Source of the DNA: Bacillota bacterium
Lineage (GTDB): Bacteria; Bacillota; Dethiobacteria; Dethiobacterales; Dethiobacteraceae
NCBI GenBank assembly: GCA_024650095.1
Contig: JANKMV010000001.1
Span: 11,095 to 34,702 of the forward strand
Direction of reading: 5' to 3'
Length of the DNA: 23,608 nucleotides
Part shown: one piece after another, positions 1 through 22,826 of the stretch
How the letters are laid out: each line of letters starts with the position of its first letter
How positions within the stretch are numbered: position 1 is the stretch's first letter
Notes under the pieces: model-generated
Database searches by the model: none
Told to the model about the DNA's origin: nothing
What the model saw: the letters and a program-made list of their open reading frames with translations, nothing else
Program-made: the position numbers and the translations under genes

Positions 1-396
1 ATAAAGATGGTGACGGGTTGTATATTGGGAATCGTGCAGCACGACCTGACAACCAAGTCCCGTCGCCTCGTTGATGAGGAGAGGCGCCATCAGGTTCGTC
101 GTCATATCTGCCGGGTTATCTGGAACGGTTACGATTGAGTAAACCTCTATATCATCATCATGGGCAAGAAGCTCTTCTACCAACTCATTTTTATTGATTT
201 TCACTAGATAGTCGTTAAAGAATAATCCCGGTTTCGTTAGAATGAAACTGGGTCCGTCCTGGCTTTCAAGCCAAAAAAATAACGAATTCCCAGGAATTTT
301 CTGAAGGCGGAAGCTATAAATATCTGGAAACCCCGGCAAGGCTTTCACCATGCTCACAGGTATATTATTCTCTACTGCACACACTTTTACCCACAT
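1..396 (-). CDS. fliW: Flagellar assembly factor FliW, C-terminus cut by the window edge
   Basis: FliW binds flagellin and, in Bacillus, releases flagellin to antagonise the translational repressor CsrA. Reading the minus strand from 396 gives 132 codons without a stop. They contain the family signatures ALPGFPDIYSF near the N-terminus, a PGLFFNDY segment, then VTVPDNPADMTTNLMAPLLIN and a terminal stretch of the type QVVLHDSQYTTRH. Family members are about 150 aa, so only a few residues should lie beyond base 1. ATG 396 has almost no spacer to the AAAGG before it; GTG 384 is a reasonable alternative start behind GGATG. The gene follows flgL by 42 bases with no terminator, the Bacillus order, where csrA usually comes next outside this window. 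Identification is from motif and synteny. Confidence 0.9.
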   Translation of the reverse strand, partial: MWVKVCAVENNIPVSMVKALPGFPDIYSFRLQKIPGNSLFFWLESQDGPSFILTKPGLFFNDYLVKINKNELVEELLAHDDDIEVYSIVTVPDNPADMTTNLMAPLLINEATGLGCQVVLHDSQYTTRHHLY

Positions 397-438
397 CCTT
401 TATAACATAATCTTTCCGTAAGAGCAAGATTTAAGAGA

Positions 439-1320
439 TTACCGGAGGAAATCCAAAAGACTCGGTTGAATAATTTTTGCACCTGCGGATAATGATGCTC
501 TATAAACATTCTCCATCATGGCATAGTTCATATAGGTTTCCGCAAAGTCGATATCCTCTAACTTTGATCGTAACTCAGTGAAGTTAATTTTTTCCGATAG
601 TAAATTCTCCATTGTCATGTCCAACCCATTGGTCATGGCACCAACTGTTGCCGTTTTGTCCAGGATATGATTTAGAGCAGCGTCTATTTTTTCGATTGAT
701 ATATTAACAGCCTCCCCATCGTTATCAAGCAACCCCTGTTTCATTTGTTCCATGGACTGAAACATATCTGATGTCATAAATAAGTCATTACCATCAATAT
801 TACCACGGATCGTCACCGAAGGCGCCACCTCCCAAGAGATGCTTCCTTGATCGCCATGGTAAGAGATGCCATCTTCATCTCTGGTAAACGGCACTGTGTT
901 CGTCTGATGACCGCTAAAAATATAGCGACCCTGATAACTACTATTTCCTATTTGCACAAGAACATCAGTTAATGTATCAACTTCGATTGCATTAGCTCTG
1001 CGAGCTTCTTCAGACATGGTATCTGTGGCACCGGCTATCGCTAATTCACGGACGCGCTGCAATACTTCAGTGATACTTTTGAGGGAATCTTCTGTCACAC
1101 TCATCCACGAAGTTGCTGCAGCAATATTTTTCTGATACTGATCATTTGTAGCCAGAGCTGTGGTATAGTTCATAACTTGCGCTACCTTGATTGGGTCATC
1201 TGAAGGTTTCTGCAGAGCTTTGCCGGAGGAGAGCATGTTTTGCAAACGACTCATTTGACCAAGATTTTTATTAACATTATTTAAAACACTATTTTTCATT
1301 AGCTGGTGCGTTACTCTCAT
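439..1320 (-). CDS. flgL: Flagellar hook-associated protein 3 (hook-filament junction), FlgL
   Basis: FlgL sits between FlgK and the filament outside the cell and is exported by the flagellar type III system. The 293-aa product begins MRVTHQLM, as in Bacillus FlgL, followed by a coiled-coil flagellin-like N-domain with SGKALQKPSDDP. It ends in a flagellin-like C-domain (YMNYAMMENVYRASLSAGAKIIQPSLLDFL). A longer frame opens at TTG 1326, but ATG 1320 lies 7 bases after an AAAGGAGG ribosome site and matches the family start, so ATG is chosen. It is immediately downstream of flgK (13 bases) and probably co-transcribed from the flgM promoter. There is no sign of truncation. Confidence 0.93.
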   Translation of the reverse strand: MRVTHQLMKNSVLNNVNKNLGQMSRLQNMLSSGKALQKPSDDPIKVAQVMNYTTALATNDQYQKNIAAATSWMSVTEDSLKSITEVLQRVRELAIAGATDTMSEEARRANAIEVDTLTDVLVQIGNSSYQGRYIFSGHQTNTVPFTRDEDGISYHGDQGSISWEVAPSVTIRGNIDGNDLFMTSDMFQSMEQMKQGLLDNDGEAVNISIEKIDAALNHILDKTATVGAMTNGLDMTMENLLSEKINFTELRSKLEDIDFAETYMNYAMMENVYRASLSAGAKIIQPSLLDFLR

Positions 1321-1333
1321 ATACAACCCTCCT

Positions 1334-2803
1334 TTATCTGATCATACGGTTAATTACTGTATCAAAGAGTTCATCAAATGCGGTAATCATTCTGGCAGAT
1401 GCCTGATAAGCCAGTTGGAACTGAATCATGTTGGCAAGTTCTTCATCCAAGGAAACCCCGGAAATTGATTCTTTTCGTTCCTGCATCATGTGGATGAGGG
1501 ATTGCTGGTTCTCTGACATGCGGCTACTTTCCTGGGAATCCACACCCAGACGAGCAATGAGATCTTTGTAAAAATTCTCAAATGTAGTGATTCCGGTCTC
1601 CCCATCCGCTGGTAAACGCAGACGGTTTTGGAGTTCTGCATCCGTGTCCTCAACCATGGATGCATTGCGCAACTGAGCAATTTGCAGCGCATTATTACCG
1701 TCACCTGCATTGGGAGCGCCCGGTTCTGACCAATCATCAGGGAGAGCTGCTGCTGCGATTTTTCCTACATTCGCTTTTATCTCATCGCTGACTGCCAGGT
1801 TTTCCAGATGGGTACCGGTAAAAAAGTTAGTACCCTGATCGCCGAAAAGGTCCATTCCCTGGGAGTGTGCAGCGTTGACCTCAGTGATGATTCCCCAAGC
1901 CATGCTTTCAAAAGTTTGCATATAATCTTTTAGGTTGGTGTCGCGCACACTTTGGAGTCCGCCGATTTCGCCGTTTCCAATATTGACCACACGATTGTCC
2001 CGTTCCCATACAATCTGAGGAGAGACAGGCCAACCCTCAACCATCCCCTCGGACGGCTCTACAGCAAGATTGTGTACAGAGTTTTCATTTACAAGGGACC
2101 GACCGCCGATATAGATATTTAAGGAACCACGGGGAGTCGACAGCGCTGTAAACTCAATCAGTTCAGATAGCCTATCCACTAAGATATCCCGCCGATCCAT
2201 GAGATCACCCGGCGTTTCATTCAAGGAAACCAATGTGATGATCTGGGAATTAAGGTCCTTAATTTGTGTTGCCAGAGAATTAACTTCAGTTACTTTTAAT
2301 GAAACATTCGTATCTATTTGGCTACGAATTGTTTTTAACTGTTCATTAACATGTTTAATGGAGTTCACCAAGGCGTTGGCGTTTTCAACAAGAGCTGCCC
2401 TGACGGGAGTACCCTCGGGATTAAGACTAAGTTCCTGCCATCCATTAAAAAAGTTTGTTATGACCGAATTAAATCCAGTTGTAGTAGGCTCCATAAACAC
2501 ACCTTCAATCTGGGTTAGAACCTCACAACTGGCATGCCAGTTACCATGAGTCTGCAGCTCTCCTCTGATTTGCATATCTAAAAATTCGTCGCGAATACGA
2601 GCGATCTCTTCCACTTTGACACCACTACCCAACATCCCTTCACCGTCGGGATAGGACATAGGAGTAGTCGCTACCATTCGGGCAACCTGGCGGCTGTAAC
2701 CGGGCGTATTTGCATTTGCCACATTATGGGCTGTGACTTCCAAAGCTTTTTGTTGTGCCTGCATTCCCAGACGGGATACATTAAGACCAGAAAACGTTGA
2801 CAC
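1334..2803 (-). CDS. flgK: Flagellar hook-associated protein 1, FlgK
   Basis: FlgK forms the first junction layer on the hook. The 489-aa product starts STFSGLNVSRLGMQAQQ and carries the rod/hook/HAP N-terminal signature ALEVTAHNVANANTPGYSRQ. The conserved C-terminal helix has SGVSLDEELANMIQFQLAYQASARMI and ends TVINRMIR. Length is typical for Bacillota. The frame is open back to TTG 2812, but that codon abuts the Shine-Dalgarno sequence; GTG 2803 has a 9-base spacer from GGAG and gives the N-terminus seen in relatives (MxSTF). It lies between flgN and flgL in the standard order. Confidence 0.93.
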   Translation of the reverse strand: MSTFSGLNVSRLGMQAQQKALEVTAHNVANANTPGYSRQVARMVATTPMSYPDGEGMLGSGVKVEEIARIRDEFLDMQIRGELQTHGNWHASCEVLTQIEGVFMEPTTTGFNSVITNFFNGWQELSLNPEGTPVRAALVENANALVNSIKHVNEQLKTIRSQIDTNVSLKVTEVNSLATQIKDLNSQIITLVSLNETPGDLMDRRDILVDRLSELIEFTALSTPRGSLNIYIGGRSLVNENSVHNLAVEPSEGMVEGWPVSPQIVWERDNRVVNIGNGEIGGLQSVRDTNLKDYMQTFESMAWGIITEVNAAHSQGMDLFGDQGTNFFTGTHLENLAVSDEIKANVGKIAAAALPDDWSEPGAPNAGDGNNALQIAQLRNASMVEDTDAELQNRLRLPADGETGITTFENFYKDLIARLGVDSQESSRMSENQQSLIHMMQERKESISGVSLDEELANMIQFQLAYQASARMITAFDELFDTVINRMIR

Positions 2804-2838
2804 TATTCTCAACTCCCTAATTGCTCATGAAGCAGATT

Positions 2839-3297
2839 TTAGGCCGAGCTACTCACAAAGTTGCCAGCAGGTGGCACCCCTACCAGCTGACCAGAACCGT
2901 TGTAAGACGGTCCATCCGCACCAAAGACTGCCCGTTGCAATTTCTCCTTAAACGCAAGAGTTTGCTTAAAGAGCAGGAGGTTCGACTTACTGATGGCTTG
3001 AACTTCCCGAGCGCTAACCTTTAAATCAAACTGCAAGGAAGCCAGTTTACTTTTTTCTTCCTGCTCGACTTCTTGAATAATTTCCCGTAGCATTCTTTTA
3101 CCGGTCAATGCTACTCGTTTCCTTTCCAGCATCTCCATAGAGGCTTTAACTTCTTCCTTTTTTTTGAAGCTCTCTGACAGGAGAGATGTGTTGGAATTAA
3201 TAATCCCTTCACGTTCCTTAAGGCTTACTTCAATGAGTCTAGACACCAGTGTTTTTTCTTCTGTCATTATATCAACTAGGATTTGTGCATCAGACAT
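2839..3297 (-). CDS. flgN: Flagellar protein FlgN, export chaperone for FlgK/FlgL
   Basis: FlgN-family chaperones are small helical cytoplasmic proteins that hold FlgK and FlgL before export. This 152-aa protein is largely predicted helix with heptad-like stretches and no membrane segment. It begins MSDAQILVDIMTEEKTLVSRL, and the pattern 'ILxxExxLxxxLIexslxErexI' is the family hallmark. Primary sequence is poorly conserved in this family, so the call leans on position between flgM and flgK, which is its place in Bacillus (yvyG/flgN). GGGAGG lies 6 bases before ATG 3297. The C-terminal tail (GSGQLVGVPPAGNFVSSSA) looks disordered. Confidence 0.8.
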   Translation of the reverse strand: MSDAQILVDIMTEEKTLVSRLIEVSLKEREGIINSNTSLLSESFKKKEEVKASMEMLERKRVALTGKRMLREIIQEVEQEEKSKLASLQFDLKVSAREVQAISKSNLLLFKQTLAFKEKLQRAVFGADGPSYNGSGQLVGVPPAGNFVSSSA

Positions 3298-3309
3298 AAG
3301 ACGCCTCCC

Positions 3310-3582
3310 TTAGTCGTTTTTAAGCATTATTTCGGCCAGTTTTTTGCTGTCCATTTCGTAAGTGCCGCTAGCAATCTGTTCCTTTATGGCAGCGACGCGT
3401 TCGCTATTATCTGCGGCATTAAGAACCTTTGCCCGCAATGCCTCCATCGCTTTTACGTTAGAGGAAATCTCTAGTGTATCCCTCGTTTTTTCTTTTCCGT
3501 TAGAGGGAGAAGGTGTGCTTACCTGTTGCTTATTCTTACCCAATAGTTTGTTGGTTTGTGAAGTCAAATCGTTAATTTTCAT
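3310..3582 (-). CDS. flgM: Anti-sigma-28 factor FlgM
   Basis: FlgM holds sigma-28 (SigD/FliA) inactive until the hook is complete and is then exported. The 90-aa product starts MKINDLTSQTNKLLGKN. It has a linker rich in Ser, Lys and Thr, then the conserved C-terminal sigma-binding region (DTLEISSNVKAMEALRAKV, RVAAIKEQIASGTYEMDSKKLAEIML). The frame extends to TTG 3618, but that codon overlaps the -10 element of the promoter, so it cannot be translated from that transcript. ATG 3582 is 9 bases from AAGGAG; ATG 3588 is only 3 bases away. It heads the flagellar operon. Confidence 0.93.
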   Translation of the reverse strand: MKINDLTSQTNKLLGKNKQQVSTPSPSNGKEKTRDTLEISSNVKAMEALRAKVLNAADNSERVAAIKEQIASGTYEMDSKKLAEIMLKND

Positions 3583-3616
3583 TCTCATACTCTCCTTATT
3601 CTCCGCTATAGTATTC

Positions 3617-3643
3617 AAATCGTCATTTCAAGCAGAAACTTTA
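3617..3643 (-). promoter_or_regulatory. Sigma-28 (SigD/FliA-type) promoter of flgM operon
   Basis: On the minus strand, TAAA (3643-3640), a 15-base spacer and GACGATTT (3624-3617) match the Bacillus SigD consensus TAAA-N15-GCCGATAT at 10 of 12 positions. The start site would fall near 3610, giving a short leader before the flgM ribosome site at 3597-3592. Control of flgM by its own sigma factor is the known feedback arrangement. Confidence 0.8.
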
Positions 3644-4030: not shown

Positions 4031-4064
4031 AAAAGGCCATCTTTTGAGAGGTGGCTTTTTTTTA
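4031..4064. terminator. Intrinsic terminator between convergent comFB and the cap operon
   Basis: AAAG(G)CCATCT pairs with AGGTGGCTTT around a 6-base loop, with one bulged G and one G-T pair, and is followed on the plus strand by a run of T. It ends comFB. The minus-strand reading has AAAAGG giving only four T after the stem, so it may also end the cap operon, less efficiently. It overlaps the last bases of the ggt fusion gene. Confidence 0.8.
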
Positions 4065-6551
4065 TTGGGCCTGAAAAATACCGTCTCCCCGACTCGGATC
4101 CCCGGAGCCGGAGAATTCTTGTACTTCTGGTTCATCATAGATTACGGCGACTCTACCAAAATATGCACTAGGACTTAAAGTCACAATCTCATACCCTTTT
4201 TGTCTGAACATATCTGTTACCTTTTTTGGCATCCCCGTTTCCACCCAGACTTTTTTTTCTTCACTCCAAAAACGAGGGTGATTCACTGCATCAACAATAT
4301 TCATGTTCATGTCTGCAAATAGAACCATAACCTGTGTCAAGAAGGCTGGAATTTTTCTTCCCCCCGGGCTACCCAAAGCCATTATGGGTAAATCTTCTTT
4401 AAATACCATAACTGGACTGATATGGCTGTAAGGCCTTTTGCCAGGCTGAAAGTAATTGGGGGATGAGGGACTTAAACTGAAATTATGTAACTGTGTGTTT
4501 AGAAAAAAGCCCTCCGCTTGCAAGCCATTACCGAAAAGGTAACTGAGCGTATTGGTCACACTCACCCAATTGCCATATGCATCAACCACTACAAAATGAG
4601 TGGTATTATCTGAAGGTCGGTAGGGATCAGTATACATTTGCAGGGGCACACTTCCCTCACTTATTTGTGTTACTTTCTCTGCTACATACGCGTCACTTAA
4701 TAGTTCATCCAGTTCCACATAGCCAAAACTAGGGTCACCCACATAATTTCGTCGGTCGCTGTATGTGCTTTTCATTGTCTGTTCGATTAGCCGATAGAAC
4801 TCAGGCTCATTTTCCGTATACACAGAAAGGTCGAAATGATTTAAAATCTTCAACTGTTGCAATACATTAAATCCTCCGGCCGGAGGTGGCACCGTTACAA
4901 TGGTATAGCCTCTATATTCTCCCGATATCGGGGCTCTGACAACCGGCTGATAATCTTTTAAATCCCTATGTGTGATTGTCGCTCCCTGGCGTTTTAGTGC
5001 ATCAATAATACTGCTACTAATATAGCCTTCATAAAAAACAGAACTACCCTGGTCCATAATACTTTGCAACGTATTTGCAAGAGTTGGTTGCGTAATTGTT
5101 TCCCCCACCTTTGCGACCCACCCATTGCGGAAAAAGTCCCTAAGCGCATCCCGGCTTTGTGCAATTTTCCCGGAATTATTCCTTAACCTTACCTGCAGTT
5201 GATTCGTTAAAGCAAAGCCGTCTTTTGCCAAAACATAAGCAGGCTTTATGGCATCGGCATAGTTTAACGTACCATAATCTTCGATTGCTTTTTCTAAACC
5301 TCTAACAAATCCGGGAATTCCTGTGCTTGGCCAGGCCACTAGTTTTTCTATTTCTTCCCTACTGGCAGTGGATGGAGCAGTTTCCCTGTAGTCAATAACA
5401 ACCTGCCTGTTTTCCTCAGCAAGATGGACCAACATGATCCCACCTCCACCCAAACCGGAACCGTCTGGCTCAACCACAGCCAAAGCATATGCTACAGCCA
5501 CTGCCGCATCAACAGCATTACCACCGGCTTGCAAAATATCCATACCCGCTTCAACAGCCAATCGGTGTCCTGCTGCAACAGCATAGCTTTTGTCACCAGT
5601 AACAGGTTTTACACTGGGTTCATCAGCAAAGGGTTCGTCCGCGTTTTCCTCTAGCGTAAAGAGTTGTGGCGAGGCATATACCCCCTTGAAATACTGACGA
5701 TCAAACTCGTCGCCGATCAGGTTGTTTAAAAACGCCTGTGCCTGAAAATAGTGCCATGGCCTCATCAATAATGCGGGGACGCCACCTTCCATCTCAAGAG
5801 GGGCCACTTCCGCCATGATGCCGTCAGGATAAACAGCAACTGAAACAATCGCACTCGATGAGTTTCTCCCCCCAATAAAAGAGTCTAAACCAGAAATAAT
5901 TACCCCGTTTTCATAAATTACAACGTTAGAGGTACTCTTCTCATGGTCACCTATGACTATGTGAGCCCCATTATCGATTGCAAATTCCGCGTTACGATAG
6001 AAAAGATCTTCGCTCCAATCCTGTGTATCATATGCAAACTTAACAATGATTGCGTTATAATCTTGGTACCCGGAGATTATTTGTGACATTTCTACTGTTT
6101 TAATCTCGCATGAAAGGTTAAGTAAAACAGCATCCGGGATTTGCGATAGGTATAGGACAGAAAGATTCTCTTTAGTCTCCGGATCAGGGCTAACCTCTTC
6201 GCCTTCAAGGAAGAATGCAAAGCCCTCTTCGGAAAGATACGGGAGTGTTACCGCTGAGATATCGGCATCCTTGAGCAACTCTTTTTCCCGGTTTCCCGGT
6301 AGCGAGTTATCGTAATGGGCAATCAAATAGTGATTTTCTGCCGATTGCACAATTGCATCTCTACTTAAATAATAACTAAGAGCATTGTTTCTTGCAATAC
6401 TACCCGCAATTGTCACAGTAATAAGGGGGGTCTCCTGTGGGGCAGGATACCTCCCTTCAGCATGCCTTAGCCATATTGTTCCCGCTACTGCTGCTGCTGT
6501 TATTATGATTAATAATAAAAAGACCATAATAACTTTCCGGACTTTCTTCAT
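4062..6551 (-). CDS. CapA-like domain fused to gamma-glutamyltransferase (CapD-like), membrane anchored
   Basis: One uninterrupted 829-aa frame. Residues 7-30 form an N-terminal membrane anchor, which places the rest outside the cell. Residues ~42-300 resemble the CapA/PgsA (PGA_cap) fold: strand ITVTIAG, PDAVLLNLS at 139-147 and GAHIVIGDHEKS...GVIISGLDSF at 195-225, but the metal ligands are lost (GD becomes AG, NLE becomes NLS, GHHPH becomes GDHEK). Residues ~315-829 are a full gamma-glutamyltransferase. It has the Arg loop YRETAP (R389), the autoprocessing nucleophile in DNTTHF (T650), GNGLQAEGFFLN and the oxyanion GSPGG (727-731). Family knowledge: CapD of Bacillus anthracis, a GGT homologue, cuts polyglutamate and attaches it to the envelope. 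Last gene of the capsule operon, 13 bases after capC. I infer a tethered capsule-processing or anchoring transpeptidase; plain hydrolase activity is the alternative. Confidence 0.85.
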   Translation of the reverse strand: MKKVRKVIMVFLLLIIITAAAVAGTIWLRHAEGRYPAPQETPLITVTIAGSIARNNALSYYLSRDAIVQSAENHYLIAHYDNSLPGNREKELLKDADISAVTLPYLSEEGFAFFLEGEEVSPDPETKENLSVLYLSQIPDAVLLNLSCEIKTVEMSQIISGYQDYNAIIVKFAYDTQDWSEDLFYRNAEFAIDNGAHIVIGDHEKSTSNVVIYENGVIISGLDSFIGGRNSSSAIVSVAVYPDGIMAEVAPLEMEGGVPALLMRPWHYFQAQAFLNNLIGDEFDRQYFKGVYASPQLFTLEENADEPFADEPSVKPVTGDKSYAVAAGHRLAVEAGMDILQAGGNAVDAAVAVAYALAVVEPDGSGLGGGGIMLVHLAEENRQVVIDYRETAPSTASREEIEKLVAWPSTGIPGFVRGLEKAIEDYGTLNYADAIKPAYVLAKDGFALTNQLQVRLRNNSGKIAQSRDALRDFFRNGWVAKVGETITQPTLANTLQSIMDQGSSVFYEGYISSSIIDALKRQGATITHRDLKDYQPVVRAPISGEYRGYTIVTVPPPAGGFNVLQQLKILNHFDLSVYTENEPEFYRLIEQTMKSTYSDRRNYVGDPSFGYVELDELLSDAYVAEKVTQISEGSVPLQMYTDPYRPSDNTTHFVVVDAYGNWVSVTNTLSYLFGNGLQAEGFFLNTQLHNFSLSPSSPNYFQPGKRPYSHISPVMVFKEDLPIMALGSPGGRKIPAFLTQVMVLFADMNMNIVDAVNHPRFWSEEKKVWVETGMPKKVTDMFRQKGYEIVTLSPSAYFGRVAVIYDEPEVQEFSGSGDPSRGDGIFQAQ

Positions 6552-6564
6552 GGTAGACCCAACC

Positions 6565-7014
6565 TTATACTAAAAAAATATAAATCAAAAGACCTAGATA
6601 CGTTATTCCACCTAAAGCAAACATACTTGCTACAGTGGGCACTATCCCCTGTTTCCCGAAACTGTTGGCAATCAGCCCCGGAATAATAATACCCATTCCG
6701 TTTAATACCAAGAAATCCAAATGATACATCTTCATCACAAACATCAAACCAGCTTTAATTAGTAGTGAGGCAAGAATCATCGCACCGAATTTACGCCGAC
6801 CGTAAAGAATAATATGTTTTGACAGCCACTCTACGCTCATATAAGAAATAATCGCGATGAGTAATATAGCGATTAAAGCAACCGGCTGGTCAAAAACGAG
6901 TGCTAAAAATGAAGGCACAATTATCCCTGCAGGAATAATACCCAATATATCCGCAAATATAATACTTAGGGAAATCCCTAAAACTAAAGCTACAAAAAGC
7001 TCGCCCTGGTACAT
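6565..7014 (-). CDS. pgsC: Poly-gamma-glutamate synthase membrane subunit PgsC/CapC
   Basis: The 149-aa integral membrane protein closely follows Bacillus PgsC along its full length. Shared landmarks are the opening ALVLGISLSIIFADILGIIPAGIIVP, the central ILYGRRKFGAMI and GIIIPGLIAN. About five hydrophobic segments are visible. PgsC works with PgsB as the core polymerase of poly-gamma-glutamate at the membrane. Its ATG directly abuts the stop codon of pgsB (TAAATG), so translational coupling is likely; its ribosome site, GGGGGCGAG, lies inside the end of pgsB. Confidence 0.95.
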   Translation of the reverse strand: MYQGELFVALVLGISLSIIFADILGIIPAGIIVPSFLALVFDQPVALIAILLIAIISYMSVEWLSKHIILYGRRKFGAMILASLLIKAGLMFVMKMYHLDFLVLNGMGIIIPGLIANSFGKQGIVPTVASMFALGGITYLGLLIYIFLV

Positions 7015-8199
7015 TTACTCGCCCCCAAGCTCCCGACAAATTTCCTCCACACCAAAATAGTTGCCGATACCAAGAAAAACATCTTTTGATTTGCACCGTT
7101 CCTGCAAATACTGTGCTATATTTTTTGCAGAAAATCCTTCCAGATTAGTCACTTCACTAAATGAAAGGGTTTTGCGATTTGTATAGATTAAGCCAGTTCC
7201 TTCTCCAATCAGTATGAGAGATTTTGCTGGTATCTTTTCTAGCACTCCCTTTAAAAAATACCGTGCCCTATCCATCCTATCGTTTCGACAATTCATAATC
7301 AGCGTGGTATCTCTGTTTACCTGTTCCCTTGACTCTAAATAATCCCAGATGGCAATGGTTGTGGTAGGGTCATTTGCAGAAAAAGCATTGATTAAAACCC
7401 CCTCACCCGCTTTTCCCTTTATCTTCTGGAAACAAATAGCACCTGAATCGGGAATTGCTTTTAGCATTCCCGCCATGGCAACATCTTCTCCGATTCCCAG
7501 CGCTAACGCTGCCTCCAGCGCAAGCGCCACGTTCTCCTCAAAAACAGGAAAGGAAAACTTTCCACAGTATTCCTCTGAAACAAGCGAAGCGTCTGCCACC
7601 CGAAGCACAATATTTCTTCCTTCGGCTGCTTCTGAAAAATAGGCTGTGAAATCATCCTGAAGTACTATCAGCGTAGTGCTTTCGGGCACAGCCGCCATAA
7701 AGGCATCCGCCGCATCCTGTAAGGAGGGACCCTGAACATCCATATGATCTTCCCGTACGTTGGTAACAATCGAAAAATTGCTTCTAAGATATTCTTTGGC
7801 AAATACCTTTTGATAATCAGGAGCCACAGCCATACATTCCGCAACAATTGCCCGCGCGTCCTTTTGTAATGCTTCCCGGATCACAAGCTTTACTTCCTTT
7901 ATGTTTGGACCTTCCGGACGACGGATTAACTCTGTCTCCCTGGCAAGGTACTTGCCGTCTTCCATCTCGAAACTCAGTATACATGACTTACTCCCCGTTG
8001 TCTTACCCACCGTGGGAATGCCCGCTTCCAATAATGCCGCGGTCAAAAGGCGCGTAACAGTGGACTTGCCCCTTGTACCATTAACATTAATCCTATATGG
8101 AATAGTAGAAACCTGCTTGGCTATCATATGTTTTTCCCGAAAAGCCAGTCCGATTGCAATCAGAGGGAAAACAAGCATAAAAAAAGTCGCTGGATTCAT
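7015..8199 (-). CDS. pgsB: Poly-gamma-glutamate synthase ATP-dependent ligase PgsB/CapB
   Basis: This Mur-ligase-like amide ligase activates the growing polyglutamate chain with ATP. The 394-aa protein is the size of Bacillus PgsB (393 aa). It has an N-terminal membrane segment (residues 4-20), then the P-loop VNGTRGKSTVTRL at ~39-51, nearly identical to PgsB/CapB. TNVREDHMDVQGPSLQDAA is the Mur-ligase metal-binding region, and the C-terminus is a Rossmann-like domain with LIMNCRNDRMDRARYF. GAGGTG lies 6 bases upstream of the ATG, and the gene follows the capA-like gene by 15 bases. It is intact, so the operon should be able to make polymer. Confidence 0.95.
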   Translation of the reverse strand: MNPATFFMLVFPLIAIGLAFREKHMIAKQVSTIPYRINVNGTRGKSTVTRLLTAALLEAGIPTVGKTTGSKSCILSFEMEDGKYLARETELIRRPEGPNIKEVKLVIREALQKDARAIVAECMAVAPDYQKVFAKEYLRSNFSIVTNVREDHMDVQGPSLQDAADAFMAAVPESTTLIVLQDDFTAYFSEAAEGRNIVLRVADASLVSEEYCGKFSFPVFEENVALALEAALALGIGEDVAMAGMLKAIPDSGAICFQKIKGKAGEGVLINAFSANDPTTTIAIWDYLESREQVNRDTTLIMNCRNDRMDRARYFLKGVLEKIPAKSLILIGEGTGLIYTNRKTLSFSEVTNLEGFSAKNIAQYLQERCKSKDVFLGIGNYFGVEEICRELGGE

Positions 8200-8215: not shown

Positions 8216-9223
8216 TTATAGCTTCAATTCCCACTTTTGGCCACCCAGTCTACGAGAGATTTTATAATATAAGAAACCTTTATTCAGAACCTTACAGGAA
8301 TAACCATTACCAACAACAGGAATTGCATTAATAACCACGTTACCTTCCGCTGATACCACCACCTGAAGTACAACAGATTCTCTCTCATAACTATATACAG
8401 CTTCCTGTGACCATAAAGTGCCAATATTATAAAATATAACACTATCTCTATAGTACTCCACTTTTCCCACCGGACCCGACCCTGTACCCACCACAATATG
8501 CACACCTTTGTCAACTAATGCCATGCCTAACTCTTTTTTCCTTTCCTCCAAAATATCTTCGGGAAAAGATACTAAAGCAATCACAATATCAGCACTCAGC
8601 TTAGCCTCAGTAATAGCTTCATCATGTCTCTCACCAAAAGTTGCCACGCCAAAACGATTTACTCCCGCAGCCCATCCCAACGGTGGAGATGCATTGACAG
8701 CCAAAACACCCAGCGCTATTTCCTTCCCGTGAAAATAAACCGGGGCCACCGCATCCACTTCATTAAGACCTGCCCCGATAAAATCTATACCTTGCTGGCC
8801 TAATGCATTAACGGTATCCAGCAGGCCGGTAACCCCAAAACTTAAAAATTGTTGGTCTGAAATCTGTACCAAGTTTATACTGTATTTTTCTAGTAATTCA
8901 ATGATAAAATGACCCACATTACTGTCATCCATATCCCGAAATATAGGAGTTGTCAGGGAAAGCAAATTCACATCAGATAAATTAAAAATTTCCCCCAAGC
9001 CCCTGCTAAACGGAATGTTTTGTTGTTTAAACGAGTACAAATTGCCTCCGACTGTGATCGTAAGGCTGCTGTTGTCCCTTGCTGAAAATACAATTCTCTC
9101 TTCTTGTTTTTCCAGGTAGACAACTGCAACAGAACTAATTATAAGTATAATGAGCAACCAACGTAAGTGAGGCATATTCATAACTCGACTCTGTTTAATA
9201 TAATGTAACCCTTTACTTTGCAA
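8216..9223 (-). CDS. CapA/PgsA-like capsule protein lacking metallophosphatase ligands
   Basis: First gene of the capsule operon. From TTG 9223 it encodes 335 aa, with one membrane segment (~21-38) and an extracellular domain that aligns to CapA throughout. Landmarks include GLLDTVNALGQQGIDFIGAG, AKLSADIVIALVS and VDKGVHIVVG. Each place where the calcineurin-like fold holds its metal ligands is altered: GDvml to GGNLY (~59), NLE to LTT (~99), ANNH to SDQQ (~122), HWGxE to SFPED (~219), GHHPHV to GTGSGPV (~246) and GNFVF to GTLWS (~268). TTG is chosen because AGAGGAG sits 8 bases before it, while ATG 9286 would lie upstream of the start site of the promoter at 9277-9303. CapA/PgsA is needed for polymer export or stability in relatives; here I infer a scaffold rather than an enzyme. 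Confidence 0.85.
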   Translation of the reverse strand: MQSKGLHYIKQSRVMNMPHLRWLLIILIISSVAVVYLEKQEERIVFSARDNSSLTITVGGNLYSFKQQNIPFSRGLGEIFNLSDVNLLSLTTPIFRDMDDSNVGHFIIELLEKYSINLVQISDQQFLSFGVTGLLDTVNALGQQGIDFIGAGLNEVDAVAPVYFHGKEIALGVLAVNASPPLGWAAGVNRFGVATFGERHDEAITEAKLSADIVIALVSFPEDILEERKKELGMALVDKGVHIVVGTGSGPVGKVEYYRDSVIFYNIGTLWSQEAVYSYERESVVLQVVVSAEGNVVINAIPVVGNGYSCKVLNKGFLYYKISRRLGGQKWELKL

Positions 9224-9276: not shown

Positions 9277-9303
9277 TAATCGGCACGTAATAATTTTTCT
9301 TTA
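9277..9303 (-). promoter_or_regulatory. Sigma-28 type promoter of the capsule operon
   Basis: Minus strand TAAA (9303-9300), 15-base spacer, GCCGATTA (9284-9277), against SigD consensus TAAA-N15-GCCGATAT: 10 of 12 bases, with GCCGAT complete. The start would be near 9270, about 35 bases before the ribosome site of the capA-like gene. Spacer length equals that of the flgM promoter in this window. Confidence 0.65.
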
Positions 9304-9485: not shown

Positions 9486-9527
9486 AGAACAAAGAAACAA
9501 CCACGGGAGCTCAAAACTCCCGTGGTT
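9486..9527 (-). terminator. Intrinsic terminator of the tRNA-Thr transcript
   Basis: A perfect 11-base-pair stem (9527-9517 with 9509-9499, core CCACGGGAG) with a 7-base loop is followed on the minus strand by a T-rich run (GTTTCTTTGTTCTC). It lies 13 bases beyond the CCA end of the tRNA. Confidence 0.8.
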
Positions 9528-9539
9528 ACTATATTTGCA

Positions 9540-9615
9540 TGGAGCCGGCAAGAGGACTTGAACCCCCAACATGCTGATTACGATTCAGCTGCTCTACCAT
9601 TTGAGCTATGCCGGC
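9540..9615 (-). tRNA. tRNA-Thr, anticodon CGU
   Basis: The minus strand folds as a full cloverleaf. Acceptor GCCGGCA (9615-9609) pairs with TGCCGGC; the D stem is GCTC/GAGC; the anticodon stem GCTGA/TCAGC is perfect around loop ATCGTAA, which puts U33 before anticodon CGT; the T loop is TTCAAGT. The discriminator is T and CCA is encoded at 9542-9540. It decodes ACG (Thr). It has its own promoter and terminator and appears to be a single-gene transcript. Confidence 0.95.
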
Positions 9616-10889: not shown

Positions 10890-12089
10890 CTATTCCTTAG
10901 CCGAAAGCTTATGTGACGTAATGGGGGCCCCTGCCGTTGGTAATGGAGCCACCGCCTCGGTCAGAGTAAATTCACCTTTCTCGATCCACTGCTTCAGCGT
11001 CCCCGCAATTTCACGGGCCTTGGGATAACTAGACAGTGGAGCCGTGGGAATTTCTTTGTCCCCAATGATAATGGTACCTGACTTTAGTTGGGCGTACGTA
11101 ACTTCACCCAAACTACCACCGATACCCTTGGGATAGGCGTCACTATAATCCACAACCTGTGCCACAATATCTTCGTCCTTGACCGCAGCGAAGCGTAGCG
11201 TCTCTACATCTAGAATGGGAATGGGTAGTCCAACGCCCACCTGCATGGAAACTCCATAGCCTAAGAAGCTCACGCCACGCAAATACTTAGCACTCATTTG
11301 CTTTAAGTCCCCAAGTAAGGCCAATGTACCGGCTCCACCGCGGGGGACACCATTCTCGCTCCGTGGCGCGTTGGGGTTATGTTGTGTACCGTGCCAAGCC
11401 ACATAACCCACACCACCACCTAGAAAAAGCTTGGTGCCCACACCAACGGTGCGATAAAATGGATCATTCAACAGTGGTGAGAGCTGGCCCGCACTGGAAT
11501 AGTTGGCATTGCCCATATTGGGTTTTAAGATGCCCATATAGGTGTAAATGGTACGATCACTCACATTGACGGCAACATTATAGTTCTGGTAGCAGTTGCG
11601 CGGATTAAATAAGTACGCTTCATTAATATCCGCCAAGGTAATGTATGTTTCCAGCTTCTGACGGGGATAACAATCTGTACCGTACGAAGAGGCCTCTAAT
11701 AACACTTGCTTACCCGCGACTAAATCTTCAATTACATGGGCTCCCCCATAGTTAAAATCTCCGGGAAAAGTACTGTTGGCTGGGTCCGTGTCCGGAATTT
11801 CCGTTGCCCCGAGAAAAACATCCACTGCAGCAATGCCAGCATAGGCATTAACGCCATTTAAATACGCTTTGGTTATGCGCATGCGTGGGGTTGCGTGGCC
11901 AAGATTAAGGAAAGCACCTGAAGAACACATGGGTCCAAACGTACCCGTGGTGACCACATCGACACGACGGGCCGTATCCTCCACACCGTGTTCGGCCACA
12001 AGGCCTAGCACTTCTTCAGCGGTTACAACTACCGCTTGCCCTTTGGCAATTTTTTCGTTAATTTCTTTAATACTACGTAATTGTGACAT
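10890..12089 (-). CDS. Homocysteine biosynthesis protein, DUF39 (L-aspartate semialdehyde sulfurtransferase)
   Basis: The 399-aa protein matches the DUF39/HcyBio family of Methanosarcina MA1821: GTFGPMCSSGAFLNLGHATPRMRI with the conserved Cys, NYGGAHVIEDLVAGKQVLLEASSYGTDCYPR with a second Cys, FLGGGVGYVAWHGTQHNP, and GEVTYAQLKSGTI. The family makes homocysteine directly from aspartate semialdehyde and sulfide, bypassing O-acylhomoserine. It heads the operon with NIL-ferredoxin and UPF0280, under a SAM-I riboswitch, exactly the control expected for a methionine-pathway enzyme. ATG 12095 lies 1 base from AAGGAGG, so ATG 12089 (7-base spacer) is taken as the start. The enzyme is classically archaeal and is also found in anaerobic bacteria. 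Confidence 0.92.
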   Translation of the reverse strand: MSQLRSIKEINEKIAKGQAVVVTAEEVLGLVAEHGVEDTARRVDVVTTGTFGPMCSSGAFLNLGHATPRMRITKAYLNGVNAYAGIAAVDVFLGATEIPDTDPANSTFPGDFNYGGAHVIEDLVAGKQVLLEASSYGTDCYPRQKLETYITLADINEAYLFNPRNCYQNYNVAVNVSDRTIYTYMGILKPNMGNANYSSAGQLSPLLNDPFYRTVGVGTKLFLGGGVGYVAWHGTQHNPNAPRSENGVPRGGAGTLALLGDLKQMSAKYLRGVSFLGYGVSMQVGVGLPIPILDVETLRFAAVKDEDIVAQVVDYSDAYPKGIGGSLGEVTYAQLKSGTIIIGDKEIPTAPLSSYPKAREIAGTLKQWIEKGEFTLTEAVAPLPTAGAPITSHKLSAKE

Positions 12090-12100
12090 CTTCATTCCTC

Positions 12101-19156: not shown

Positions 19157-19759
19157 CTAAATGTCGGTAAAATATTGATAGCCGGCTAAAAAGGCTTTTT
19201 TATTCGCTGCCAAAAAGCGAGCAGGCACAATGGCTTCGAGAGCCTCTTCAAAACTGGCTAAGGGAAACTGCAAACAGTGTGCTAAAACACCGATTAAGGC
19301 AACGTTTGCTGCTTTGGGTTGCCCGCACTCACGTGCTACAGCCAAGGCATTGATGGCATACAGCTTACCTAGCGTGCCCTTTGCCACCATCGTTTGCATG
19401 GCCTTTTCAATGTTATGTGGGTATTTTTGTAAGCCCATAATGACAGGGACAGGTTTAATCTCTTGTGTACTGCAAACCATAGTGCCACCACTATGCAGAT
19501 AGGGCAACCAACGCCATGCTTCTAACTTTTCCGAAGCCATCACGTAGTCTGCCTGCCCTGGCTCAATGAGAGGTGAATGCACTACTTCACCAAAACGAAT
19601 ATAGGTGAGCACGCTGCCGCCACGTTGAGCCATGCCGTGTATTTCTGAAATTTTAAGATCAAAATCATGGGCTTGAATCACATGCGCTAAAATCTTACTG
19701 GCCAACACAATTCCTTGGCCCCCGACTCCACCCATCAAAATACTGGTTGTTTTAGGCAT
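19157..19759 (-). CDS. iorB: Indolepyruvate ferredoxin oxidoreductase, beta subunit
   Basis: The 200-aa gamma-type 2-oxoacid:ferredoxin oxidoreductase domain has the family start SILMGGVGGQGIVLASKILA, then KISEIHGMAQRGGSVLTYIRFG and IEPGQADYVMASEKLEAWRW. With IorA it oxidatively decarboxylates indolepyruvate, phenylpyruvate or hydroxyphenylpyruvate to the aryl-acetyl-CoA while reducing ferredoxin. ATG 19759 is preferred (AGGTG, 6-base spacer) over GTG 19768. It overlaps the iorA stop by 8 bases, so the subunits are translationally coupled. Confidence 0.94.
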   Translation of the reverse strand: MPKTTSILMGGVGGQGIVLASKILAHVIQAHDFDLKISEIHGMAQRGGSVLTYIRFGEVVHSPLIEPGQADYVMASEKLEAWRWLPYLHSGGTMVCSTQEIKPVPVIMGLQKYPHNIEKAMQTMVAKGTLGKLYAINALAVARECGQPKAANVALIGVLAHCLQFPLASFEEALEAIVPARFLAANKKAFLAGYQYFTDI

Positions 19760-21503
19760 CTTGGTCACCTGCCTTTACAATGGCATTGGATCTACAAACC
19801 TGAACACAAACGCCACAACCTACACACAAGGAAACATCTATGGACATGGTCTTATTATCTTTAACGATAGCTGGGCAACCCAGCTTCATGCACAGACCAC
19901 ATGAGATGCACCGCTCTGTATCAATGACATAGACCTCTTTGATGCTCTTATCTAAAAGTGCGCATGCACGACGTGCGATAATGACAGATGGTTCCGGCGC
20001 GGCTGCTTCTTCGCGAATCACGGCATCCAAGGCAGCAAGGTCATAGGGATCCACCTCGCGCACCCGTTTAACGCCCAGTGCACGGCAGATAGCACCTATA
20101 TCCAGTGCCACTGTGGGATTCCCCTTTAAGGTAGAACCAGTGCCAGGATGATGCTGGTGGCCTGTCATAGCCGTGATGCGGTTATCTAGCACCATCGTTA
20201 ATGTGGTCCCTTGGTTGTAGACCACGTCCGCCAAACCCGTCATACCGGAATGGAAGAAAGTTGAATCGCCGATGACTGCAGCCACTTTCCCTTTTAAGGC
20301 AGGATTGCCCTTTTCAAAGCCTAGCCCCGTGGAGATGCTCGCGCCCATGCAAATGCAGGTATCCATGGCATCAAGTGGTTGCAGCGCCCCTAGCGTATAG
20401 CAACCAATATCTCCACTGACTACCATCTTTTGCTTATGCAATGTATAGAAGACACTACGGTGCGGGCAACCTGGACACAGCACAGGGGGACGAGCAGGTA
20501 CCGGCGCTTCACTGTCCATATCTGCGGCCAAGCTCTGCGTTAGCGGCTGTCCGAGAATCTTTTTCGCAATGAGATTGGGTGAAATTTCACCTGTGAGGGG
20601 GAACAATCCTTTGCCTTGCACCTCTATCCCCATCACTTTAATTTGTTCCTCCATGAAGGGATCTAACTCTTCCACCACATAGAGTTGATCGACGTTGGCG
20701 GCAAATTCTGCTAGCAATTTTGTGGGTAAGGGATAACACATCCCCAACTTCAAAACGGAGGCGTCGGGTAACGCTTCCCGCACCTGTTGATAACAAATGC
20801 CGGCACAGATAACGCCAATTTTTTTCTGCCGCCACTCAATGCGATTAAGGGTCGTTTGCTCTGCATATTCGCGTAAAAATTCCAGTCGTTCCTCCACCGC
20901 CACATGGCGTGGGCGAGCATAGGCAGGCATCATGACATGCTTACTCATATCCTTTTCATAGGGACGAATGGCAATATCCGCTCGCTCGCGCACGCTCACC
21001 AAAGATTGTGCATGGGATATGCGCGTGCTCGTTTTCAACATCACTGGCGTATCAAACTCTTCACTAATCTCAAGTGCCGACTGTACAAAGTCTTTTGCTT
21101 CTTGACTATCGGCTGGCTCTAACATGGGAATCTTAGCAAAACGTGCGTACTGCCGACTATCTTGTTCGTTTTGTGAACTATGCATCCCTGGATCATCGGC
21201 TGCCACCAGAACGAGGCCGCCGTTAACGCCGATGTAGGAAAAGGTCATTAACGGATCTGTCGCAACATTGACACCCACATGCTTCATGGCCACCAACACG
21301 CGGGAGCCAGCTAAAGCAGCGCCAATCCCCACTTCAAGTGCCACCTTTTCATTACTGGACCATTGTGCATCAATTTCGTCATAGGTGGCCACATCCTCTA
21401 AAATCTCTGTACTCGGGGTACCGGGATACGCCACTGCGAAATGAACACCGGCTTCATAGGCACCACGGGCAATGGCTTCATTGCCGCTCAGTAACTTCTT
21501 CAT
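19752..21503 (-). CDS. iorA: Indolepyruvate ferredoxin oxidoreductase, alpha subunit
   Basis: A 583-aa TPP- and iron-sulfur-dependent subunit. The N-terminal pyrimidine-binding domain has LLSGNEAIARGAYEAGVHFAVAYPGTPSTEI. VLCPGCPHRSVFY lies at 342-354 and GDIGCYTLGALQPLD at 364-378. The TPP/Mg site runs from GDSTFFHSG (412-420) to DNRITAMTGHQ (440-450). The C-terminus carries two 4Fe-4S clusters (C532/C535/C538/C543 and C560/C563/C566/C570). The reaction is arylpyruvate + CoA + oxidised ferredoxin to arylacetyl-CoA + CO2 + reduced ferredoxin, central to aromatic amino acid fermentation. Length is within the family range. It starts at ATG 21503 behind AGGAGGGGG, 24 bases after paaK. Confidence 0.96.
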   Translation of the reverse strand: MKKLLSGNEAIARGAYEAGVHFAVAYPGTPSTEILEDVATYDEIDAQWSSNEKVALEVGIGAALAGSRVLVAMKHVGVNVATDPLMTFSYIGVNGGLVLVAADDPGMHSSQNEQDSRQYARFAKIPMLEPADSQEAKDFVQSALEISEEFDTPVMLKTSTRISHAQSLVSVRERADIAIRPYEKDMSKHVMMPAYARPRHVAVEERLEFLREYAEQTTLNRIEWRQKKIGVICAGICYQQVREALPDASVLKLGMCYPLPTKLLAEFAANVDQLYVVEELDPFMEEQIKVMGIEVQGKGLFPLTGEISPNLIAKKILGQPLTQSLAADMDSEAPVPARPPVLCPGCPHRSVFYTLHKQKMVVSGDIGCYTLGALQPLDAMDTCICMGASISTGLGFEKGNPALKGKVAAVIGDSTFFHSGMTGLADVVYNQGTTLTMVLDNRITAMTGHQHHPGTGSTLKGNPTVALDIGAICRALGVKRVREVDPYDLAALDAVIREEAAAPEPSVIIARRACALLDKSIKEVYVIDTERCISCGLCMKLGCPAIVKDNKTMSIDVSLCVGCGVCVQVCRSNAIVKAGDQDA

Positions 21504-21527
21504 TGCTATCTGTCCCCCTCCTCTGCC

Positions 21528-22826
21528 TTACGTGCGTCGATCAATAACCCGCTTCGCTTTACCCATGGTGCGTTCTAATGATTTGGGTTCTACTAGCTTC
21601 ACACGAGCACTGACGGTTAACACACTCGCTAATTTACTACTAATTTTTCGTTCCACTTCTTCTAGATCCCTAAATGAACCCGTAAATGTATTACGGTTTA
21701 ATTCCACACGAACTTCCAAATCGTCTAGGTACCGTTTCTTTTTATCCACGACAATTAAATAATGCGGTGCCACTTCCTTAATCTCCATCAACACACTCTC
21801 GATTTGCGAAGGAAAGACGTTGACTCCATTAATGATTAACATATCATCCGTCCTGCCCGTGACACGACGCATACGCGCCGTGGTGCGACCACAGGCACAA
21901 CGCGCCCGTGTAAGCACCGAGATATCTTTGCTTCTATAACGTATGACAGGGAAACCCTCTTTGGTGAGGGTGGTGAAGACCAATTCCCCTTCAGTACCAT
22001 CCGCTACGACATGTCCCGTTTGGGGATCAATCACTTCCACGAGGAAATGATCTTCATTAATATGCAAGCCTGCTCGCGCAGAACATTCGCCGGCCACTCC
22101 GGGGCCTATAATTTCGGTTAAGCCATAATTATCTGTTGCCGTTAGCCCTAAACGCGCCTCTATCTCTAGCCGCATCTGATCTGTCCACGGCTCGGAACCA
22201 AACATACCAACCCGCAGAGGTAAGGAGCATGGATCGATTCCCATATCTACCGCCACTTCGGCAAGATAGAGCGCATAGGAAGGCGTAGCAATTAAAACCG
22301 TAACACCAAAATCTCGCAGCAACATAATTTGCTTTTCCGTATTGCCCACAGATGCCGGCACCACCGTGGCACCCACCTTTTCCAAACCATAGTGCAAACC
22401 AAAGCCCCCGGTAAACAAGCCATACGAAAAACAAACCTGCGCAATATCTTCGGCTCCCACACCAGCCATGGTGGTAATTCGCGCCACCAGTTCTGACCAA
22501 ATGGCAAGATCATTGCTTGTATACCCAGCAACAATAGGCTTGCCGGTAGTACCAGAGGAAGCGTGTACGCGCACAATGTCTTTCATGGGGCGTGCAAACA
22601 AGCCAAAGGGATAGTTATCGCGCAGTGCATCTTTTGTGGTAAAGGGAAAATGCTGCAAATCCTCAATGGATTGCACTTGCGAGGGGTGCAGACCCTGGCG
22701 CTCAAAAAGCGCACGATAAAACGGTACTGTTTCATACACAGACGCTATTGTATTCTGTAATCGTGATAACTGTAGCGTCGTCAGCGCTTCTCCACTTATC
22801 GTCTCTTGCTTCGGGTCCCAGATCAT
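21528..22826 (-). CDS. paaK: Phenylacetate-CoA ligase
   Basis: A 432-aa adenylate-forming enzyme of the PaaK family. It has the ATP P-loop HASSGTTGKPIVAGYT (88-103), FSYGLFTGGFGLHYG, the DNYGLTEIIGPGVAGEC motif, YRSKDISVLTRARCACGRTTARM before the C-terminal domain, and the C-terminal catalytic lysine region ERTMGKAKRV. It interconverts arylacetate, ATP and CoA with arylacetyl-CoA, AMP and PPi. In amino-acid fermenters next to iorAB it is thought to recover energy from arylacetyl-CoA or recycle free acid. First gene of the paaK-iorA-iorB operon; GGGGGGAG precedes the ATG. I found no convincing sigma-A promoter upstream; an inverted repeat lies at 22895-22913. Confidence 0.95.
   Translation of the reverse strand: MIWDPKQETISGEALTTLQLSRLQNTIASVYETVPFYRALFERQGLHPSQVQSIEDLQHFPFTTKDALRDNYPFGLFARPMKDIVRVHASSGTTGKPIVAGYTSNDLAIWSELVARITTMAGVGAEDIAQVCFSYGLFTGGFGLHYGLEKVGATVVPASVGNTEKQIMLLRDFGVTVLIATPSYALYLAEVAVDMGIDPCSLPLRVGMFGSEPWTDQMRLEIEARLGLTATDNYGLTEIIGPGVAGECSARAGLHINEDHFLVEVIDPQTGHVVADGTEGELVFTTLTKEGFPVIRYRSKDISVLTRARCACGRTTARMRRVTGRTDDMLIINGVNVFPSQIESVLMEIKEVAPHYLIVVDKKKRYLDDLEVRVELNRNTFTGSFRDLEEVERKISSKLASVLTVSARVKLVEPKSLERTMGKAKRVIDRRT

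Follow-up and report, generated by a model that had tools for sequence, protein, structure and literature searches.

A CapA-fold module joined to a CapD-type gamma-glutamyltransferase in a polyglutamate operon of the class Dethiobacteria

The fused gene and its operon

This work concerns a 23,608-nucleotide stretch of DNA, hereafter the window, from a bacterium of the family Dethiobacteraceae (Bacillota, class Dethiobacteria; GenBank assembly GCA_024650095.1, contig JANKMV010000001.1, positions 11,095 to 34,702), and in particular the last gene of a polyglutamate operon that it carries. On the minus strand the operon runs in the order capA1-pgsB-pgsC-fusion, with intergenic gaps of, in turn, 16, 0 and 13 bases, and its last gene encodes one polypeptide in which a CapA-like module precedes a complete gamma-glutamyltransferase (GGT). 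The parts of the fusion protein and the other genes of the operon are as follows (aa, amino acids).

4062..6551, minus strand: the 829-aa CapA-GGT fusion protein, encoded at the end of the operon
6459..6551, minus strand: residues 1-31, N-terminal helix and predicted membrane anchor, with four K/R in residues 1-7
5664..6434, minus strand: residues 40-296, CapA/PGA_cap-fold module lacking the conserved catalytic residues, from fold, profiles and residues
5580..5663, minus strand: residues 297-324, linker, of low model confidence
4086..5579, minus strand: residues 325-822, CapD-type gamma-glutamyltransferase, from PF01019 and residue comparisons
5385..5387, minus strand: R389, the Arg conserved in the donor site of GGTs, kept in 15/15 family members
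4602..4604, minus strand: T650, predicted to be the nucleophile and to begin the small subunit, kept in 15/15 members
4482..4484, minus strand: N690, aligned with E. coli Asp433, Asn in 15/15 members
4359..4373, minus strand: GSPGG, residues 727-731
6565..7014, minus strand: pgsC (TIGR04011, 111 bits; PF14102, 106.6 bits)
7015..8199, minus strand: pgsB (TIGR04012, 365 bits)
8216..9223, minus strand: capA1, a separate CapA/PgsA-like protein of 335 aa with a TTG start, placed as in P0122 (PF09587, 70.3 bits)

The fusion is real, is conserved in one class and puts two known parts together in a new way. The frame was claimed to be continuous in an earlier, sequence-only reading of this DNA, and it is: 4062..6551 forms a single open reading frame (ORF) of 829 codons with an ATG start and no internal stop, which is also open in the 2.66-Mb draft genome assembly. 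Among the best 120 of 3754 protein matches, from which the family was drawn, there are 11 full fusions of 821-853 aa including the window's, the other ten being 47-68% identical to the window protein, together with four shorter members that lack the module (P0008, P0011, P0014 and P0015). One homologue with the full architecture sits in a genome that is a single contig of 3,558,951 bases, and the fusion is therefore no assembly error. Domain and fold evidence agrees with the ten homologues that a CapA-like module and a complete GGT occupy one polypeptide, as that reading had held. The N-terminal anchor is indicated by a hydropathy peak in the 19-residue window from residue 8 (mean 2.76, against 1.58 for the best window past residue 40) and by a predicted helix at residues 2-31, and the linker between the two halves varies from 13 to 37 residues across the 11 fusions. 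What is novel is the architecture and the loss of the CapA site; the chemistry is not new. We noticed no account of a CapA-GGT fusion in the literature, nor any publication combining Dethiobacter and polyglutamate, though both are weak negatives drawn from open-licence papers only.

A CapD-type transferase behind a degenerate CapA fold

Residues 338-821 match PF01019 over profile positions 2-510 of 512 at 440 bits (cut-off 27), and TIGR00066 is matched at 425 bits (cut-off 358). The nucleophile Thr, donor-site Arg and GSPGG of the GGT family are all present, so that the intact GGT with T650, R389 and GSPGG that had been read from the sequence is upheld at every one of these positions. In the HMMER alignment residue 650 lines up with the residue at which solved GGT small subunits begin, and T651 follows T650; the donor-site role of R389 is one that we presume from E. 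coli GGT. While the completeness of the GGT stands, its generic description gives way to a CapD-type one, since the lid loop is missing, TNT(L/I)S is present and Asn occupies the Asp433 position. On residue comparison of the 15 family members with 109 other GGTs, the GGT half is CapD-type by all three features in 15/15 members. The spacing F691-K705 is 13 residues in every member, against 23 in 80/109 and 13 in 25/109 other GGTs, and because most other GGTs have the longer spacing we read the lid loop as absent from the family. Position 690, invariably Asn in the family, is Asp in 85/109 and Asn in 18/109 of the others. The solved CapD small subunit shows the same absence of the lid loop, TNTLS and Asn at the Asp433 position by HMMER alignment, a pattern taken from one CapD alignment, with the CapD chain compared through PDB entries only. 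The best-scoring solved relatives of the GGT half are the Bacillus and E. coli GGTs, with CapD and a cephalosporin acylase also among the matches. In a maximum-likelihood tree built quickly from 48 GGT domains, with Shimodaira-Hasegawa-like approximate likelihood ratio (SH-aLRT) support only, the 15 members form one group (support 100), and the classical GGTs are separated (support 100) from the family, from other lid-less relatives and from the operon-linked GGTs of genomes G049, G072, G186 and G109, which lie together. According to PMC8062742, lid-less GGTs have an open cleft that is thought suited to accept polymer, and CapD anchors polyglutamate to peptidoglycan.

The N-terminal half is less easily recognized by profiles. 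The N-terminal region of the window copy has no Pfam match at E<=1 and so stays below the cut-off of PF09587 (PGA_cap, 27 bits); of the eight homologues scanned, two pass it (P0003 at 30.2 and P0012 at 33.2 bits) and six fall below (11.3-25.7 bits). The structure check proposed for this region nevertheless returned a confidently predicted CapA/PGA_cap (calcineurin-like) fold for residues 40-296. Comparison of the N-terminal modules with PGA_cap proteins gave a profile match of 96.6% (over 80 columns), with 1.1% and 0.7% for GGT and PgsB controls, and the fold and profile evidence for CapA identity agree.

The active site of the module was read by alignment to the epimerase MslH, in which the metal is reported to be bound by E44, N87, H259 and H261 and the acid-base pairs to be H88/D91 and D11/H295 (PMC10406935), with 11 fused modules set against 10 non-fused PGA_cap proteins. 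None of the fused modules retains N87, H88, D91, H261 or H295 (MslH numbering): N87, H88 and D91 fall in a gap in 11/11, H261 is replaced by Lys in 11/11 and His at H295 occurs in 0/11, while Asp at D11 is found in 2/11 and Glu at the E44 column in 3/11. The non-fused proteins keep E44, N87, H88, D91 and H261 in 10/10, H295 in 9/10 and D11 in 8/10; the H259 column is uninformative because just 1/10 of them has His there. The gap over the N87-D91 stretch is an uncertain part of the alignment, and the H261 and H295 columns lie in a well-aligned part. The description of the module as degenerate is thus borne out, with a CapA fold and the conserved catalytic residues lost in 11/11 copies. The CapA half looks catalytically dead, and we assign it the CapA fold without classing it as a working PGA_cap enzyme. 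Invariance of 25/255 module columns, including K171, F172, W266 and Y268, suggests that it is under some constraint.

Distribution, origin and genomic setting

The fusions extend beyond the window genome to G010 and G004 in the same family and G021 in the same class, and one (P0006) belongs to Candidatus Contubernalis alkaliaceticus. Among 97 genomes of the class, four carry the fusion, one (G094) a 599-aa form and two (G049 and G072) an unfused operon GGT; a further genome, G074, has a GGT of a different type and no pgsC match. The pgsC family (PF14102) was found in 8/97 class genomes, namely the four fusion genomes, G094, G049, G072 and G046, and at 7/8 of these loci a GGT is fused or lies in the same gene string. 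The eighth, in G046, has a polyglutamate hydrolase after pgsC (PF05908, 152.7 bits). A phylum sample of 398 genomes gave a pgsC match in 34; two of these were class genomes already counted and 30 were added to the survey, which left out G426 and G261 (pgsC below cut-off) and G479 (from an order search). This survey of architectures near pgsC, which the sequence-only reading had called for, finds CapA and GGT as separate neighbours, CapA first, in 4/38 loci and as one polypeptide in 4/38. The remaining loci have a GGT without the module (1), CapA without a GGT (2) or a PF05908-type hydrolase (4), and 23 showed none of these next to pgsC, four of the 23 having a GGT elsewhere in the stretch.

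Some loci are of interest in their own right. PF05908-like genes follow pgsC, with no CapA or GGT detected there, at L056:8437-9300, L098:7302-8261, L105:5881-6726 and L107:7762-8607, the L056 copy being the one checked against Pfam. At L018:8936-10735 a 599-aa member with the anchor, the GGT and a mere remnant of the CapA module follows capA1-pgsB-pgsC.

Within the phylum sample the fusion was matched at E<=1e-60 in 44/398 genomes, and the N-terminal module aligned in just two, both from the class. No fusion appeared among the matches outside the class, all of which start at query residue 301 or later in open frames of at most 629 aa. The N-terminal module of P0012, used as a query in a word-based search that scored 7995 candidates, returned just itself and P0013, though independent CapA-GGT fusions elsewhere are compatible with this result because such a search needs shared five-letter words.

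The order pgsB-pgsC-pgsA-ggt in the unfused operons of G049, G072, G186 and G109 is the starting point expected for a fusion of neighbours. There pgsA and ggt are separated by 32 bases in G049, 15 in G186 and 31 in G109, and their frames overlap in G072. Such an arrangement suggests that pgsA/capA was fused in place to the CapD-type GGT gene downstream of it. Of the four separate CapA proteins beside a GGT, that of G049 has an intact site; that of G072 has lost E44 and N87-D91 and keeps H261 and H295; and those of G186 and G109 have lost N87, H88, H261 and H295, G186 having Lys at H261 as in the fused modules. The pgsBCA operons without an adjoining GGT (G220 and G372) keep the catalytic site. 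Three of the four unfused cases, few and related as they are, suggest that loss of the CapA site goes with having a GGT next door, with G049 to the contrary. Short degenerate CapA proteins stand beside a GGT at L101:6021-7025 (334 aa, with Lys at the H261 position as in the fused modules) and L106:7500-8501 (333 aa), and these are possible cousins of the ancestor of the fusion. In the tree P0008 and P0011 are nested among the fused members, which suggests loss of the module, and P0014 and P0015 branch near the family root, which is compatible with either gain or loss first.

The window operon also contains a second, stand-alone CapA (8216-9223) that the earlier reading did not mention. A separate capA1 precedes pgsB in G000, G010, G021 and G094; among six capA1 proteins H261 and H295 are kept in none, and H88 and D91 in one (G021). 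The profile probability of the fused modules is 95.5% to capA1 and 96.6% to other PGA_cap proteins, values that do not settle whether duplication of CapA1 was the source. The operon of G004 (a genome 98% complete) reads pgsB-pgsC-fusion and shows no other CapA, and there the fusion is the sole PGA_cap match in the genome by PF09587.

Flagellar genes adjoin the operon. Pfam identifies flgM, flgN, flgK, flgL and fliW on the same strand about 440 bases downstream (window 1-3618, minus strand). By eye, flgN- and flgK-like and further flagellar genes adjoin the operon downstream in G010 and G094 and divergently upstream in G021 and G004; none was seen by eye near the operon in G072, nor in the G049 stretch, whose contig ends just before pgsB. 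A sigma28-like promoter was found before capA1, on the consensus that we take to define such sites.

9277..9303, minus strand: sigma28-like promoter TAAA-N15-GCCGATTA, whose end is 53 bases upstream of the TTG of capA1

Chance would give 0.28 matches to TAAAN13-16GCCGAT in the window, which has two, the other one being inside the 15791-17401 gene. Upstream of the assumed first operon gene, similar sites score 10/12 at 63 bases in G010, 11/12 at 75 bases in G004 and 9/12 at 158 bases in G094; in G021 the best score is 10, about 190 bases upstream and inside another ORF, in G072 it is at most 8, and the G049 scan covered 23 upstream bases. Random sequence of the window's composition gives about 4.9 sites scoring at least 10 per 23.6 kb. 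For B. subtilis, PMC3963450 reports that polyglutamate synthesis rises when flagellar rotation is blocked and that pgdS, a polymer hydrolase gene, has a sigmaD promoter. Elsewhere in the window, a tRNA-Thr(CGT) gene and then a terminator-like hairpin of 16 pairs lie between the operon and the preceding genes (9496-9615, minus strand); a methanogenesis marker 16 relative, which scores 132 bits and so falls short of the 364-bit cut-off, stands beside ferredoxin-like and PRK04334-like genes (10890-12095, minus strand); and genes for the beta and alpha subunits of indolepyruvate ferredoxin oxidoreductase adjoin a phenylacetate-CoA ligase-like gene (19157-22826, minus strand).

Proposed function, its rivals and known systems

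The protein is probably an in-place pgsA/capA-capD fusion, in which a non-catalytic CapA tether keeps a GGT that cuts or transfers polyglutamate at its synthase. What computation supports is which parts are present, in what order, and which residues are missing; docking, autocleavage and the choice of substrate and acceptor are our inference. The earlier reading had likewise proposed that the fusion would hold the transpeptidase at the synthase and could set chain length or anchoring, which may be so. Most of the protein would lie outside the membrane, and the CapA module, as a non-catalytic tether, would keep its old contact by docking on PgsB/PgsC. The GGT half would autocleave before T650, meet gamma-glutamyl chains as they emerge and pass them either to water, for release and chain length, or, for anchoring, to an amine acceptor, of which the cell wall is an example.

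Several observations weigh against this proposal, and those that concern the module also favor its most durable rival, namely that the CapA module is vestigial, a spacer decaying after the fusion, and that the GGT is an ordinary membrane-anchored CapD without docking. Besides having lost the conserved catalytic residues in 11/11 copies, the module evolves faster than the GGT half, with lower identity (33-60% against 59-76%). It is missing from 4/15 family members, two of them nested among fused ones and one of them, P0008, retaining the anchor and a module remnant, and is therefore dispensable there. A separate CapA1 is present in 3/4 fused genomes, including the window's, and the fused module is thus not the sole docking candidate. 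The whole-chain model is also weak in the GGT half (mean predicted local distance difference test score, pLDDT, 66.4; predicted template modelling score, pTM, 0.48), and we therefore make no claim about the relative placement of the two halves. Against a vestigial module stand its 25 invariant columns, its confidently predicted fold and the case of G004, where no other PGA_cap protein was found. On balance we consider this rival unlikely.

A second alternative is that the GGT half does not act on polyglutamate, being an exported GGT for glutathione or gamma-glutamyl peptides or an amidase resembling a cephalosporin acylase that lies in the operon by chance. The solved structures matched by the GGT half, which include classical GGTs and a cephalosporin acylase, would accord with this. 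The source on lid-less enzymes further reports that E. coli D433N loses transpeptidation while 82% of hydrolysis remains, and that Asn at the Asp433 position is common to class IV cephalosporin acylases (PMC8062742); for both reasons N690 alone is no proof of a polyglutamate transpeptidase. However, the missing lid loop and TNT(L/I)S occur in 15/15 members as in CapD, the family groups with operon-linked GGTs apart from the classical ones, and a GGT is present at 7/8 class pgsC loci, all of which makes this alternative very improbable. That the N-terminal region has an unrelated fold, or that the frame is an artefact joining two genes, would fit the lack of a Pfam match N-terminal of the GGT in the window copy, but the former is ruled out by the fold prediction and profile comparison and the latter by ten homologues of identical architecture, which leaves this explanation with almost no credibility.

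If the tethered reading is true, a cutting or anchoring enzyme is physically joined to a subunit of the synthase, and this is relevant to the way in which export is linked to chain length and anchoring. The fusion also offers a single-chain test object for the role of CapA, which is disputed: PMC6029982 cites earlier work that calls CapA/PgsA essential, and itself reports that B. subtilis without pgsA still makes polymer, with the D/L ratio shifting from 75/25 to 5/95 (L-rich). We argue for a structural role of CapA in this lineage because the module lacks the catalytic residues and, in G004, is found solely as the N-terminal half of a CapD-type enzyme. A bolder scenario, which we regard as doubtful, is that the PgsA partner lost a metal-dependent epimerase-like site beside a CapD-type enzyme, became an adaptor and then fused. 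The polyglutamate of these operons would accordingly have a single chirality, and the synthase that exports and processes it would bring its own transpeptidase and be turned on by sigma28 together with the genes for the flagellar filament. The chirality part draws on that one report of L-rich polymer (PMC6029982) and on the epimerase activity of MslH, and a literature search found no paper on PgsA and epimerisation by title.

Among known systems, the closest in the GGT half is CapD of Bacillus anthracis (capsule transpeptidase; PDB 3g9k, 3ga9), which shares the GGT fold, a Thr starting the small subunit, the absence of the lid loop, TNTLS, QLxNF with Asn and GSPGG. The cap operon includes the gene for CapD, which attaches polyglutamate to the wall (PMC4497714), and the fusion gene likewise belongs to a polyglutamate operon; CapD is a separate protein, however, whereas the fusion chain starts with a CapA-fold module. 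CapA/PgsA proteins (PF09587, PGA_cap) have in common with the fusion the fold, the N-terminal anchor and the place in a pgs operon, but the fused module is shorter, is joined to a GGT and lacks the conserved catalytic residues. MslH, a lasso peptide epimerase (PDB 8gq9, 8itg, 8ith, 8gqb), is described as a Ca(II)-binding enzyme with two His/Asp pairs (PMC10406935); by alignment the fused module has neither the site nor the pairs. The separate pgsB-pgsC-pgsA-ggt operons of G049, G072, G186 and G109 resemble the fusion in gene order and in type of GGT (the comparison of residues covered G049, G072 and, from G109, P0050), and differ in that CapA and GGT are two adjacent genes.
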